35,370 bases of DNA, from assembly GCA_016211945.1 (NCBI GenBank), contig JACRHV010000006.1, positions 110,723 through 146,092 on the forward strand, read 5' to 3'. The stretch is from Minisyncoccota bacterium (GTDB lineage: Bacteria; Patescibacteriota; Microgenomatia; UBA1400; UBA12028). Both the position numbers and the translations under genes were made by a program. The notes under the pieces were generated by a model. The model was not told the DNA's origin. It saw only the letters and a list, made by a program, of their open reading frames with translations, and did no database searches. Positions 1 through 32,472 of the stretch are shown here, in pieces (within the stretch, counting starts at the first letter, position 1; each line of letters begins with the position of its first letter).

Positions 1-130
1 TTTCTGTTGCACCACCGCTGGTTCCTCCACCACTTGACTCTCCACCACGTCCCTGTGCAAAAGCAGGAGACACCATAAAAGGTGACAATGAAACAAGCAA
101 CGCAAGACATATAGTAATGACGTATTTCAT
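1..130 (-). CDS. Partial secreted protein (N-terminal fragment)
   Basis: The minus strand opens with ATG at 130 and stays open to the window edge, giving 43 codons. The visible residues form a classic signal peptide: MKY, a hydrophobic core, then an SPAFA cleavage motif followed by QGRGG. After it the chain is rich in Gly and Ser. The start lies 2 nt past the stop of the upstream Cys-rich VirB2-like gene, so the two are probably co-transcribed and both exported. Only the signal peptide can be read, so no function is proposed. Secretion is clear; identity is unknown. Confidence 0.7.
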   Translation of the reverse strand, partial: MKYVITICLALLVSLSPFMVSPAFAQGRGGESSGGGTSGGATE

Positions 131-132
131 AG

Positions 133-1227
133 TTAAAATCCCGGTATTTTTAATATATCAATTCCAATACTACGGACAAGAACCATTGAGAAAATGATAA
201 ATAATGCTCCTCCGATAGCATTTGTGATCATTGCTTGCGATTCCTCCATCGCCTTTGGATCACCTTTACTCGTTGCAATTTGAAATGCCGCAGAAAGAAT
301 GATAAGAAGAACAACTCCGCCACTGACACCGATCGCGAGTCGTACAAATGCGATGACAATAGATTCTCTGTCTGTTGGAATGCATCCGATTGCAGTCCAG
401 ATCGCCGCACCATTGTGTTTGTCGTAACACGCCTGACATTCCGCACGTCCCTCACCGGTTTGAATACACAGGTTGAAGACGGCAAGATTTTTGGTTGCAT
501 CTTCGGGTGTAAGACAGCGGGTAGAGCCGTCCTTTGTTTCTGTCGCGGTGCCTTGGCCAGGGCGACAGCCTTTGCCTAAAATATTTTGACAGGCAACTTG
601 ACCACGACCGCCACAATTAGGGTCGAGAGAGCAAGAACCGACAATAGGATGACGTCCTTCCAAAATTCCGTTACATACAGGTGGAGGAAATAAGTTTAAT
701 TTATACCCAAAATTGCAGACAGGAAAACCACCAAAGCATGTGGGTTTTTCATCCGTTTCTTGTCCACTATACAATATTGCTGGGTCATCTTCTGGGTGGA
801 GACACACATAACTACCAATACTATCGACGTATTTCATCGTCAATCCCGTATAAGGACAAAAGAGATTGCTTGGTATTTGTGGAAGTAGAATATTTTTTCT
901 ACAGGCTCCTTGTTTGTATCCACCACATGTTGTTGGAATAGTAGAGGAAGTTTCTGAGAGATCTTCTATTGGAGACAAACAAATATTTATTCCGCGACCA
1001 GCATCATATTTAAATGTAAGAAATCCATTACATTTGAGATTTCCTGGAATATTTTGAGGAAGCAATCTATTTATTGCACAAGGTTGTTGTCCATATTCCC
1101 CGTACCCTACGGGGCAATCAGAAGCAGCGTGTACATATGTTACATTTGTACCAAATAATACAAAAAGGACGAGAAAATCAAAAAGACCACAACCCACAAT
1201 TTTTTTTACCTGTGCTAGAAGAATCAT
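133..1227 (-). CDS. Exported Cys-rich repeat protein with VirB2/TrbC-like C-terminal membrane hairpin
   Basis: 364 residues. An N-terminal hydrophobic segment ending near VHA/AS (about residue 35) looks like a signal peptide. Residues 38-244 hold four tandem four-cysteine modules (C38/50/66/83, C101/109/124/142, C164/171/185/199, C205/213/221/238). Three of them end in a CLxP motif, mostly followed by an acidic ED or DD. A further module has C254/264/267/282. The C-terminus (about 287-355) has two membrane helices separated by a short polar turn with KGDP, the layout of TrbC/VirB2 pilins, and ends in IPGF. It probably belongs to a cell-surface or type IV secretion/pilus-like apparatus; that role is inferred. 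The next gene (1-130) follows after 2 nt. The start fits a -10 box TAAAAT exactly 6 nt upstream. Confidence 0.75.
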   Translation of the reverse strand: MILLAQVKKIVGCGLFDFLVLFVLFGTNVTYVHAASDCPVGYGEYGQQPCAINRLLPQNIPGNLKCNGFLTFKYDAGRGINICLSPIEDLSETSSTIPTTCGGYKQGACRKNILLPQIPSNLFCPYTGLTMKYVDSIGSYVCLHPEDDPAILYSGQETDEKPTCFGGFPVCNFGYKLNLFPPPVCNGILEGRHPIVGSCSLDPNCGGRGQVACQNILGKGCRPGQGTATETKDGSTRCLTPEDATKNLAVFNLCIQTGEGRAECQACYDKHNGAAIWTAIGCIPTDRESIVIAFVRLAIGVSGGVVLLIILSAAFQIATSKGDPKAMEESQAMITNAIGGALFIIFSMVLVRSIGIDILKIPGF

Positions 1228-1292: not shown

Positions 1293-3029
1293 ATGAGAGT
1301 TCGTGTTTTGTTTTCTGTCGCGCTTCTTTCTTTTCTCTTTTTTATGGGGATTTTTCGCAGTTTCGCCATAGAATGTAGCGGTGAGTGCGCCAGCATCCAA
1401 CAAGAAATCAACAATCTCTCTCGAGACCTCCAGTCCAGCGTCAATGCCACCACAAACCTTGAACAACAGGTGGCGCAACTCGATAAACGAATCAAAGGAA
1501 TTCAAGCAACGATTACGAAGGCAAAACAGCAGGCAGACTATCTTGCGCGTTCCATAGAGGAGAGAGAAACGCGATTGGCAAAACAATATCTCATCCTAAA
1601 ACAACGGGTACGGCAGCAGTATAAAAGAAGTCTTACGTTTTCTCCACTCTACGTATTGTTGTCCTCAACAACGGCCTCAAATTTCACAAAGCAACTTATG
1701 TACTGGCAGAATCTGCAGCAGCAAGATCAACAACTCATTCATGCTGTGGGGGGTGAGATCCTCACATTAGAAAAAGATAAGAAAGACTTGGAAAGTGAAC
1801 AAGCGCGGCTTGCAGGACTGCAAAAGCAACTTGACAGCCAAGTGGCATTTTTCAAAAAAGAAATTGCTGGGGCAAAAAAATATCAACAAGAATTATCCGG
1901 GAAAATTGCGGCGCTTTCTGCCCGTCAGCAAGCTATTTTGTCGGAAAAATCGGGGACATTTCAAACAACAGTAGGAGATGTTCCCCTTGCAGATGACTTT
2001 AATGCCTCGCCTGCATACAATCCAGGCTTCAGTCCTGCGTTTGCAGCATTTTCTTTCGGCGCTCCACACTTTAACGGCCTATCACAATACGGTGCACTGG
2101 GCAGGGCAAAAGAGGGGCAAAGCGCAGAGACAATCCTCAAAGCATATTACGGCGATGTTGAGGTGAAGAAAGATTACGACCGCAACGCGCGCATCTGTGT
2201 TGGGACGAGCAAAAACAACTGTCAAAGTATGGACATGGAAACATACGCAAAACGCATTTACGAGGTTCCAGGAGTTTGGGGTGATCAGGGTGGAATGGAG
2301 GCCTTAAAAGCTCAAGCAGTAGCTGCTCGTTCATATGCCCTTGCGGACATGGCGAGACGTGGGTACATTTGTGCGACGGAGTCTTGTCAGGTGTATAAGT
2401 CATCAAATAAAGGAGGGAAGTGGGAGGAGGCAGTGAACGCAACAGCGGGATGGGTTCTCATAAAAAATGGCAAACCATTATGGGCAAAGTATGCCTCTAC
2501 TGCAGGAGGATATATTGATGCGTACACCGATACCGCATCCTCCGGTCATACAACCCCAAGTTTTTGGGATACAAAGAACGGTCGTGATGGTTGGACGAAT
2601 CAGGCGTTTGAGAAGATTGCGGGAAGTCCGTGGTTCTATAAAGCATGGTATAAAACGCGTGGTGGCGATACTTGTGGCCGCTCACATCCTTGGCTCAATC
2701 AAGAAGAAATGGCCGATATTCTCAATGCATGGCGCGTACTTCAACAAGGCGGCGATACTCGGATTTCGCCGTTGGGCGGATGTTGGGGTGGCAGTCCATA
2801 CTCGATGAATGAACTACGTGATAAAGCAAGCGGTATGGGTGGCGCATTTACCTCGGTCAACTCAGTTTCGATTGAATATAGTAACTCAGGATATACGGCA
2901 AAAGTGAAGTTTAATACAAATCAAGGAGAAGTGAATATTGATGGTCTTGAGTTTAAGAAAGTCTTTAACATTCGCGCACCGGGGAGGATAAGTTTGAAGT
3001 CAGGGTTATTTAATTTAGAGAGGCGTTAG
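1293..3029 (+). CDS. Secreted EnvC-like coiled coil fused to a SpoIID/LytB domain
   Basis: 578 residues. Residues 1-25 are a signal peptide (cleavage near SFA/IE). Residues about 30-215 are Gln/Lys/Glu-rich coiled coil, like the N-terminal region of EnvC and CPR peptidoglycan-hydrolase regulators. From about 255 a SpoIID/LytB domain begins: GLSQYGALGRA (262-272), ILKAYY (281-286), EALKAQAVAARSYAL (336-350). SpoIID-family proteins act on peptidoglycan glycan strands or stimulate amidases, so a role in wall remodelling or division outside the membrane is likely. Six cysteines in the domain could form disulfides. A possible -10 box TATTCT is at 1277-1282, 10 nt before ATG. The stop codon overlaps the stop of the convergent toxin gene by 4 nt. 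Confidence 0.85.
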   Translation: MRVRVLFSVALLSFLFFMGIFRSFAIECSGECASIQQEINNLSRDLQSSVNATTNLEQQVAQLDKRIKGIQATITKAKQQADYLARSIEERETRLAKQYLILKQRVRQQYKRSLTFSPLYVLLSSTTASNFTKQLMYWQNLQQQDQQLIHAVGGEILTLEKDKKDLESEQARLAGLQKQLDSQVAFFKKEIAGAKKYQQELSGKIAALSARQQAILSEKSGTFQTTVGDVPLADDFNASPAYNPGFSPAFAAFSFGAPHFNGLSQYGALGRAKEGQSAETILKAYYGDVEVKKDYDRNARICVGTSKNNCQSMDMETYAKRIYEVPGVWGDQGGMEALKAQAVAARSYALADMARRGYICATESCQVYKSSNKGGKWEEAVNATAGWVLIKNGKPLWAKYASTAGGYIDAYTDTASSGHTTPSFWDTKNGRDGWTNQAFEKIAGSPWFYKAWYKTRGGDTCGRSHPWLNQEEMADILNAWRVLQQGGDTRISPLGGCWGGSPYSMNELRDKASGMGGAFTSVNSVSIEYSNSGYTAKVKFNTNQGEVNIDGLEFKKVFNIRAPGRISLKSGLFNLERR

Positions 3030-3298
3030 GGTATATACACATCTTTATGTGTTCCCATCATATAAAAGTATGCGTCACCGGATGAAGTTATTCGGTAAAT
3101 CATGCGATATGAACGATCGAGCGAAATACTCCATGAGCTGCGGAGATTTCCCGCAAGTTTATGTGTTCTCAATGAATGGTGTTTTGGATTTTTCTCAAAA
3201 AGAATGAGTTGTTTTTCTATTCTCGTATACAGTCTCATGTTTCTTTTTTTTATTTCGCCAATTTTCTTGAGAAGATCCTTATCAAAAAGGATGCGCAT
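3026..3298 (-). CDS. RelE/YafQ-like toxin of type II toxin-antitoxin pair 1
   Basis: 90 residues, the usual size for RelE/ParE-superfamily toxins. The C-terminal half has the typical pattern SLRTHKLAG, WSISLDRSYRMIYRI and GTHKDVY, where the conserved Arg, Tyr and His sit in mRNA-interferase members. Such toxins cut ribosome-bound mRNA when the antitoxin is lost. The antitoxin gene ends 2 nt upstream, so the order is antitoxin then toxin in one transcript. The protein is clearly paralogous to the toxin at 30717-30977 (shared NPxHxSLRxxKLxG, WSISLDRS and GTH). Its stop overlaps the stop of the convergent SpoIID gene. Confidence 0.85.
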   Translation of the reverse strand: MRILFDKDLLKKIGEIKKRNMRLYTRIEKQLILFEKNPKHHSLRTHKLAGNLRSSWSISLDRSYRMIYRITSSGDAYFYMMGTHKDVYIP

Positions 3299-3300
3299 AT

Positions 3301-3558
3301 TTAAATACGATCAAGCACTTTTTTCACAGAAAATCCAGTAACATATTGATTATTTTTTTCTGAAACAAGCGATTTTTGATATTGCTTCTCTGTTTGTGAA
3401 CTTGCTTGAAAGATGGGAATACGCTCTTGTTTCAAATCGCTTACAACAAGATGGCGAATATATTGTGTTGGCTTCATACCAAACATGTGTGCCTTTTGTG
3501 TAAGTAGGGAAAGAAGAAGTGGTGGGATGGCAACTTTAAGCTGGGATGATACTTTCAT
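3301..3558 (-). CDS. Putative ribbon-helix-helix antitoxin of pair 1
   Basis: 85 residues. The N-terminus (MKVSSQLKVAIPPLL, then TQYIRHLVVSDLK) fits a ribbon-helix-helix DNA-binding fold: a beta strand followed by two helices. The C-terminal tail is polar and would wrap the toxin. Assignment rests mainly on position, directly upstream of a RelE-like toxin with 2 nt between them. An AAGGA Shine-Dalgarno lies about 6 nt before ATG. A weak inverted repeat (CCTT-GATA-AAGG) just upstream of the start could be an operator for autoregulation; that is speculative. It shows little resemblance to the antitoxin at 30478-30711. Confidence 0.7.
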   Translation of the reverse strand: MKVSSQLKVAIPPLLLSLLTQKAHMFGMKPTQYIRHLVVSDLKQERIPIFQASSQTEKQYQKSLVSEKNNQYVTGFSVKKVLDRI

Positions 3559-30443: not shown

Positions 30444-30471
30444 TTGTTTTTATGTATGAATATTGTATAAT
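30444..30471 (+). promoter_or_regulatory. Sigma70-type promoter of toxin-antitoxin pair 2
   Basis: -35 TTGTTT (30444-30449), 16-bp spacer, -10 TATAAT (30466-30471), 6 nt to ATG 30478. Confidence 0.6.
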
Positions 30472-30477
30472 TATTGT

Positions 30478-30711
30478 ATGAAAACATTAAACATTTCTCT
30501 TCCAGAAAAACTTCAAGAGGAGGCAAGCCTCTTGGTGAAGCGTGGTCATTATGTTTCTTTCAGTGATCTTGTTCGTACTGCAATACGATCTCTTTTGGAA
30601 AGATCGGTCTATGATTCGTGGTATGAAGAAACAAAAGGTGATGTAAAAAAGGGAAAGGCTATTATCCTTGAAAATAAAAAACAATTACGTCGATATATGG
30701 CGGGACTGTAA
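30478..30711 (+). CDS. ParD/CopG-like ribbon-helix-helix antitoxin of pair 2
   Basis: 77 residues from ATG 30478; the promoter decides this start over an upstream ATG at 30463. The N-terminus KTLNISLPEKLQEEASLLVKRG and YVSFSDLVRTAIRSLLE is a standard ribbon-helix-helix: strand, helix, turn, helix (quoted in two parts). The C-terminal half is charged and would bind the toxin. RHH antitoxins normally repress their own promoter, so the -10/start region is the likely operator. The toxin gene follows after 5 nt. Confidence 0.82.
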   Translation: MKTLNISLPEKLQEEASLLVKRGHYVSFSDLVRTAIRSLLERSVYDSWYEETKGDVKKGKAIILENKKQLRRYMAGL

Positions 30712-30716
30712 TAGAG

Positions 30717-30977
30717 ATGCGCACAGTATTTTCCGTTCATTTCCAAAAAGATTTAAAAAAAATAATAAAGAAAAATCCGGGATATAAGAAAAAAATAACA
30801 GCCAGTATTGAAAAGCTCATGGAAAATCCACAACATCCGTCTTTACGACTTCAAAAACTTTCTGGTCAACATAACTGGTCTATTTCTCTTGATAGATCAA
30901 TACGCATGATTTTTCGCTATGAAGAAAATACGCTCTATTTCACAAGAATAGGAACGCATGACGAACTATATATGTAA
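30717..30977 (+). CDS. RelE/YafQ-like toxin of pair 2
   Basis: 86 residues. It shows the RelE-superfamily pattern: basic N-terminal helices (FQKDLKKIIKKNPGYKKK), then NPQHPSLRLQKLSG, WSISLDRSIRMIFRY and the closing IGTHDELY, with the Arg and His expected in the active cleft. Probably a ribosome-dependent mRNA interferase. It is a paralogue of the toxin at 3026-3298, although the antitoxins differ. The pair is inserted between sufS and sufU. Confidence 0.87.
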   Translation: MRTVFSVHFQKDLKKIIKKNPGYKKKITASIEKLMENPQHPSLRLQKLSGQHNWSISLDRSIRMIFRYEENTLYFTRIGTHDELYM

Positions 30978-31386: not shown

Positions 31387-32472
31387 ATGAAGATTCTCGA
31401 TCTCAAAACTCTCCCCGTTGATCAAGTCATTCAGGAGACTGTCCATGTTCTATCTGAAGGAGGTCTTGTGGTGTATCCAACAGAAACGACCTACGGCATT
31501 GGCGTTGACGCAACGAATCAATTCGCGGTAGATAATCTTTTGAAATATAAAAAACGACGTGAAGGAAAACCCCTTTCTATTGCGGTATTTGATGAATACA
31601 TGGCCGCATATTATGTTCAGTTGAACGAAAAAGCACGCGAAATCTACGCAACATTTTTACCGGGGCCAGTAACAGTTGTTTCAACAGGAAGACATGTGGT
31701 TGCACAAGGGGTGGAGTCGGAGGTCGGAACGTTGGGCATTCGTATTCCCAACTATCCACTTGTACTTCAAATAGTGAAAGCGTTTGGAAAACCGATTACC
31801 GCAACAGGGGCCAATGCATCGTATAAAAAACGCCCATATTCGATACAAGATATTTTCAATCATATTTCTGAGCGTCAAAAAGCACGGATTGCGTTAGTGT
31901 TGGATGCGGGTGAGCTTCCGCATAACGAACCGTCAACAGTGATAGACACAACATTGGATGACGTAATGGTTTTGCGGCAAGGAAAAATTTCATTTTCTGA
32001 AAAAAATGTAAAGATAACGAAAAATGCAGAAGAAACGCAAATACTTGGGAAGCAATTGATGTCAAAGTATAAAAATATACTGACGTATAAAGCGATTGTA
32101 TTTTGTTTACAAGGAGAAATGGGAGCGGGGAAAACGCAGTTTGCAAAGGGCATAGCACAAGCGTTGGGAGTACACCAAACAGTGAGTTCACCAACCTACA
32201 CCCTCTCGAATGAGTATGTATTTGAAGCAGAGGGAAAAAAGACAAAGTTCATTCATATTGATACATGGCGTTTATTTAATAGTAAAGAATTTTTAGAACT
32301 AGGATTCGAACATATGATTGATGCGTGTGATGTTATTGTGATTGAGTGGGCGGAAAAAATTGAAGATGTTCTCCACCAATTTGGTGATGAAGCAAAACTT
32401 CTCTGGGTAATGATTGACCAAGGGAAAAAGGAAAATGAGAGAATCATTCATGTTGGAGATATGGCTCTATGA
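31387..32472 (+). CDS. TsaC-TsaE fusion protein (t6A tRNA modification)
   Basis: 361 residues. Residues 1 to about 205 are a TsaC/YrdC/Sua5-type threonylcarbamoyl-AMP synthase: VVYPTETTYGIG, KYKKRREGKPLSIAV, LPGPVTVV, GIRIPNYP, TATGANAS and PSTVID. From about 208 the chain becomes TsaE, the ATPase of the TsaBDE complex: Walker A GEMGAGKT (243-250), SSPTYTLSNEY, HIDTWRL and the conserved IEWAEKI. The two are normally separate proteins. The open frame is continuous with no stop between the domains. The last 4 nt overlap tsaD (ATGA), so the t6A genes are one unit. A TACAAT box ends 10 nt before ATG. Confidence 0.92.
   Translation: MKILDLKTLPVDQVIQETVHVLSEGGLVVYPTETTYGIGVDATNQFAVDNLLKYKKRREGKPLSIAVFDEYMAAYYVQLNEKAREIYATFLPGPVTVVSTGRHVVAQGVESEVGTLGIRIPNYPLVLQIVKAFGKPITATGANASYKKRPYSIQDIFNHISERQKARIALVLDAGELPHNEPSTVIDTTLDDVMVLRQGKISFSEKNVKITKNAEETQILGKQLMSKYKNILTYKAIVFCLQGEMGAGKTQFAKGIAQALGVHQTVSSPTYTLSNEYVFEAEGKKTKFIHIDTWRLFNSKEFLELGFEHMIDACDVIVIEWAEKIEDVLHQFGDEAKLLWVMIDQGKKENERIIHVGDMAL

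Follow-up and report, generated by a model that had tools for sequence, protein, structure and literature searches.

A cysteine-rich ectodomain on a VirB2-like hairpin at a Patescibacterial type IV secretion locus: a candidate contact subunit

Type IV secretion system (T4SS) loci situated near dnaA and equipped with VirB2 arrays have already been published for Patescibacteria, and the locus presented here agrees with that survey (PMC12102498). In the cultured relative S. epibionticum, the T4SS and its pilin array were reported as essential for epibiotic growth (PMC10633639). According to the survey, no known conjugation adhesin has been found in Patescibacteria (PMC12102498), and for Saccharibacteria a 2024 perspective described what the T4SS does as completely unknown (PMC11665869). 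Host recognition by epibiotic Patescibacteria and the job of their essential T4SS are the questions on which the subunit described below bears. Like the Patescibacterial T4SS of these accounts (PMC12102498, PMC10633639), the present locus has VirB4, TrsD-like and PrgI genes in the vicinity of dnaA/dnaN, together with tandem VirB2-like pilins and a PF18895 hairpin. In contrast to them, one of its hairpins carries a large N-terminal ectodomain and a conserved juxtamembrane Cys core, and it is encoded with a partner hairpin gene, beside a divergent SpoIID gene and away from VirB4. T4SS and pilin arrays as such are known; for the ectodomain-bearing subunit, or for a class of such pilins, no description was found in the papers searched.

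The window, that is the whole stretch of 35,370 nucleotides that was analysed (G000:C3:110723-146092), lies in a 908-kb genome whose nearest named relatives are Microgenomates bacteria, e.g. GW2011_GWC1_46_15, which assigns it to class Microgenomatia of the Patescibacteria. The gene proposed by the initial annotation at positions 133..1227 is judged to be real; it is a minus-strand open reading frame (ORF) of 364 aa and encodes a signal peptide, a Cys-rich ectodomain and a VirB2-like hairpin. Hydropathy predicts a Sec signal peptide at about residues 1-35 (1123..1227, minus strand) with a probable cleavage site near VHA-AS, and places an ectodomain of about 250 residues between this N-terminal hydrophobic segment and two C-terminal transmembrane helices. 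A signal peptide and a pair of long helices joined by a short turn are also the features of VirB2/TrbC/TraA conjugative pilins; unlike them, the protein is longer by about 250 N-terminal residues, which contain 20 Cys, and its 364 aa lie outside the size of the VirB2/PF18895 family (about 80-150 aa).

The reading preferred here, to which a probability of roughly 0.55 is given, is that the fusion protein is a minor or tip subunit of the VirB2 class in the Patescibacterial T4SS and displays a lineage-specific domain for host contact. The Sec signal peptide would export its N-terminal part, the disulfide-rich ectodomain would fold outside the membrane, and the hairpin would reside in the membrane in the manner of a pilin precursor, with both ends out and the KGDP turn in the cytoplasm. 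Together with the array pilins and the short partner hairpin, this hairpin may then become part of the T4SS pilus or of its base, and the ectodomain, presented at the tip or surface of the pilus, could bind host-cell or envelope ligands. The likeness to the VirB5 pilus-tip adhesin would be one of proposed role only, namely a contact domain presented on a T4SS pilus; VirB5 is a separate protein without the VirB2 hairpin.

The two helices that flank KGDP at the C-terminus (154..369, minus strand), as claimed at the outset, were confirmed by hydropathy and by a confident AF2 hairpin of residues 287-319 and 324-358. Their likeness to VirB2 was borne out by an HMM built solely from array and partner pilins, with which the window protein reached 39.4 bits (shuffle maximum 14.8), and by the profile-profile comparison of hhalign, which gave the hairpin a probability of 98.6. 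At the sequence level the case for homology of the hairpin to VirB2-type T4SS pilins is strong. PF18895 T4SS_pilin was matched at E<0.001 by 63 of the 64 family members scanned, the exception being the window protein itself, which stays below Pfam detection; this copy would thus escape a survey that relies on Pfam, and most of the others would be counted simply as VirB2. The core profile gave no match in a search of PDB sequences, and a plasmid search gave none either. In one relative (L101) the hairpin resembles the Mbov_0395 family of pilin-like conjugal transfer proteins (NF045849) with E 3.4e-8, which is below the curated cut-off, and this family (model length 80) has no ectodomain, unlike the fusion protein. 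Structural alignment to the conjugation pilus of Aeropyrum pernix (PDB 8dfu; VIA-align Z 8.4, rmsd 3.4, 76 residues) is unspecific, being equalled by histidine-kinase hairpins.

Genes of a T4SS had been anticipated beyond the window edge at position 1, and it is there that they were found, since VirB4, the TrsD-like and PrgI genes and a seven-gene pilin array are all located downstream of the fusion gene. Directly downstream is the partner hairpin gene of 145 aa (L032:18416-18853), whose start occupies positions 1..130 on the minus strand and which runs beyond the window; it matches PF18895 T4SS_pilin with E 1.7e-7. About 11 kb further downstream seven small hairpin genes stand in an array behind PilN/PilO-like genes. 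At a distance of 18 to 34 kb there are VirB4, a TrsD/TraC-like protein, PrgI (VirB3), an M23 peptidase protein and a polytopic protein; these T4SS genes are in L033, and dnaA and dnaN lie beyond them. On its other side the fusion gene is adjoined by a SpoIID/LytB gene (1293..3029, plus strand), which stands beside it and divergent from it wherever the layout was inspected. The relative G001 keeps the order array, PilN/O, IPK, UppS, partner, fusion and SpoIID. It is without the gene of a 1328-aa protein with a transglutaminase-like core which in the present genome lies just downstream of the partner hairpin gene (L032:14402-18388, minus strand) and which occurs in none of the 74 related loci examined.

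This arrangement bears on the possibility that the hairpin is a mere membrane anchor and the protein an ordinary surface protein with a borrowed VirB2 hairpin, standing outside the T4SS. Such an explanation seems rather unlikely. It would accommodate the 34 kb, with unrelated genes in between, that separate the fusion gene from VirB4 here, as well as the VirB2-like hairpins that adjoin long C-terminal extensions in other Patescibacteria. However, VirB4 is found 14-39 kb downstream in 26/26 genomes with both genes on one contig (including G008, where it is reached across the circular junction), on the same strand in 24 of the 26, and in 52 of the 60 loci for which a following ORF was found, that ORF is a partner hairpin gene. 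In G057 the fusion gene even stands at the head of the pilin array. The closed genome G080 lacks both VirB4 and the hairpin genes, both being present in its congeners G057 and G186, and it is the single clear case that points to a joint loss. G002 has the fusion gene and no VirB4 was detected in it, and nine genomes of the phylum have VirB4 and no hairpin match.

The protein has a match in 50 of 53 relatives of the order, and hairpin matches were obtained in 275 of 287 genomes across the phylum. The conserved core consists of the juxtamembrane Cys, the hairpin and a C-terminal ILxIPGF, and the full core, with the TAxGCxP juxtamembrane motif and the ILxIPGF end, is typical of the class. Members of the Pacebacteria type have four conserved Cys in the juxtamembrane element, which in the window protein comprises residues 254-284 (M5; 376..468, minus strand) and reads WTAIGCIP; the initial annotation had counted it as a fifth Cys module, and it belongs instead to the conserved pilin core, being kept throughout the order. 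The ectodomain in front of the core is of about 33 to 496 aa, with a median of 276 in 61 named loci picked by two core motifs, and in some relatives it is nearly absent (33-78 aa), which means that domain display is not universal. Its folds are unrelated: Cys modules are present here and Ig-like sandwiches in a sister family; in the model of one of its members (L096; pLDDT 82.6) the same core is preceded by two beta-sandwich domains. These sandwiches align to immunoglobulin-type domains with a VIA-align Z of about 8 over 100-110 residues, which in a predicted model is a resemblance of fold and does not thereby indicate a function. Within one genus the identity of the core is 72-89%, a level that an anchor alone would not need while the remainder diverges, and that of the ectodomains is 32-38% or they are unalignable. 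Judged from these alignments, the ectodomain diverges far faster than the core, within a single genus too. Several genomes have tandem fusion genes of differing lengths. The ectodomain of G043 resembles that of partner hairpin proteins, its own partner included, and the match, part of which is signal peptide, suggests a possible exchange between neighbouring genes.

The same comparison has to be set against a purely structural role, in which the protein would be a wall-spanning or other structural part of the T4SS (a base, plug or pilus initiator that stands in for VirB5, VirB7 or VirB8) and would bind no host, its ectodomain doing no more than span the cell wall, perhaps in concert with the SpoIID enzyme encoded next door. 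This is judged rather unlikely. A SpoIID/LytB gene in 53 of 74 related loci and the deep conservation of the core, including the forms with almost no ectodomain, would agree with it, but unrelated folds over such a range of lengths are ill-suited to a fixed spacer, and the replacement of the ectodomain occurs within one genus. For the preferred reading of a contact subunit, it may be taken to suggest host contact that the ectodomain changes so fast while its core is conserved, at a T4SS locus that is essential for epibiosis in a cultured relative (PMC10633639). It is a more tentative thought that T4SS pili of Microgenomatia have a built-in recognition subunit, the exchangeable ectodomain of which sets the host contacted and which replaces separate adhesins; the types exchanged could then be, just as speculatively, Ig-like, Cys-module and other ectodomains. 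A class-wide pilin-like subunit with exchangeable ectodomains would be a concrete, testable candidate for the contact part, a piece by which ultrasmall epibionts may grip or sense other cells and whose outer part is swapped between relatives.

The 20 Cys of the mature protein form five groups of four (38/50/66/83, 101/109/124/142, 164/171/185/199, 205/213/221/238 and 254/264/267/282). The groups in front of the juxtamembrane element, all on the minus strand, are M1 (residues 38-92, 952..1116), M2 (101-151, 775..927), M3 (164-199, 631..738) and M4 (205-246, 490..615). They had been described as tandem modules of the spacing C-x(7-12)-C-x(8-16)-C-x(14-18)-C, most of them closed by CLxPED or a similar ending. 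The spacing applies to groups 1 and 2, groups 3 (x6, x13, x13) and 4 (x7, x7, x16) being just outside it, and only groups 1, 2 and 4 close with a CLxPED-like ending. In pairwise tests with shuffles M1 and M2 scored 80 (shuffle mean 23; reached by 0/1000 shuffles) and M2 and M4 scored 45 (shuffle mean 21; reached by 2/1000 shuffles with Cys fixed), and M3 and M5 had no above-chance match to any other group. There are hence three true repeats among the four proposed (M1, M2 and M4), one merely similar Cys group (M3) and a different M5, and five equal modules are ruled out. A widespread module is ruled out as well: the repeat profile found three copies in the window protein, one in the relative G001, with which M4 is common (G001/L069), and nothing in the other 86 genomes of the order. 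CGxxGQxC was considered as a general ectodomain motif and rejected; it had 3 hits among 70 proteins (shuffled mean 0.19) and is not a common theme of the ectodomains. The ectodomain matched no Pfam or NCBIfam family, and no described Cys-rich repeat family was matched. A VKOR disulfide enzyme is encoded in the genome, which is consistent with disulfide formation. In a single ORF of 510 aa (L151:382-1914, G000:C8), VKOR (E 5e-25) is joined with dihydroorotate dehydrogenase (E 1e-49), which links disulfide formation to a quinone-type pyrimidine enzyme. It is very improbable that the hairpin serves to carry a Cys-rich effector, toxin or redox domain, for in spite of a Cys content of 8% in residues 36-285 and a CxxC in M5, no enzyme or toxin family was matched in Pfam/NCBIfam and the repeats are present in only 2 of the 88 genomes of the order.

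Structure prediction had been proposed at the outset as a search for repeated disulfide folds. For the window protein, AF2 gave a confident model only for the part that begins at residue 227 (pLDDT mostly 80-96) and contains the beta-hairpin ending M4, a juxtamembrane beta-hairpin and the long helical hairpin. A beta-hairpin of moderate confidence closes M2 as well (130-143), and across most of residues 32-218 the pLDDT is <50, so that most of the ectodomain took no clear model. Foldseek found nothing with E below 1 for this model in the PDB. Both true repeats and nearby T4SS genes, on which the initial annotation had staked its idea, were found, and a contact structure can be regarded as a plausible proposal for this Cys-rich pilin-like protein.

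Several further genes deserve mention. In one array pilin (L032:5984-6553, minus strand) the hairpin is followed by a C-terminal tail rich in Cys (CGGKNQGMC...), and beside the pilin array there is a secreted-looking protein of 1348 aa with 25 Cys (L032:705-4751, plus strand) and no Pfam/NCBIfam match. At the end of the pilin array of G007, a 960-aa protein (L035:6563-9445, minus strand) has the same hairpin core at its C-terminus; a lytic transglycosylase was suspected in its ectodomain and was dropped, as Pfam and NCBIfam gave no support. The reverse layout, a VirB2-like hairpin at the N-terminus followed by a C-terminal extension of hundreds of residues or more, was seen in other classes of Patescibacteria (L142, L143, L145 and L146). 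In several genomes (e.g. G023, G044 and G046) the VirB4 match is split in two within frames of ~1200 aa, with the query break at about residue 288, which suggests a large in-frame insertion or possibly an intein. Elsewhere in the window there are two YafQ/ParE-like toxin genes, one (30463-30977) behind a ribbon-helix-helix antitoxin-like gene and the other (3026-3558) beside an unassigned ORF of 85 aa, and at 31387-32472 (plus strand) Sua5/YrdC and TsaE are read in one ORF, followed by a TsaD-like reading.
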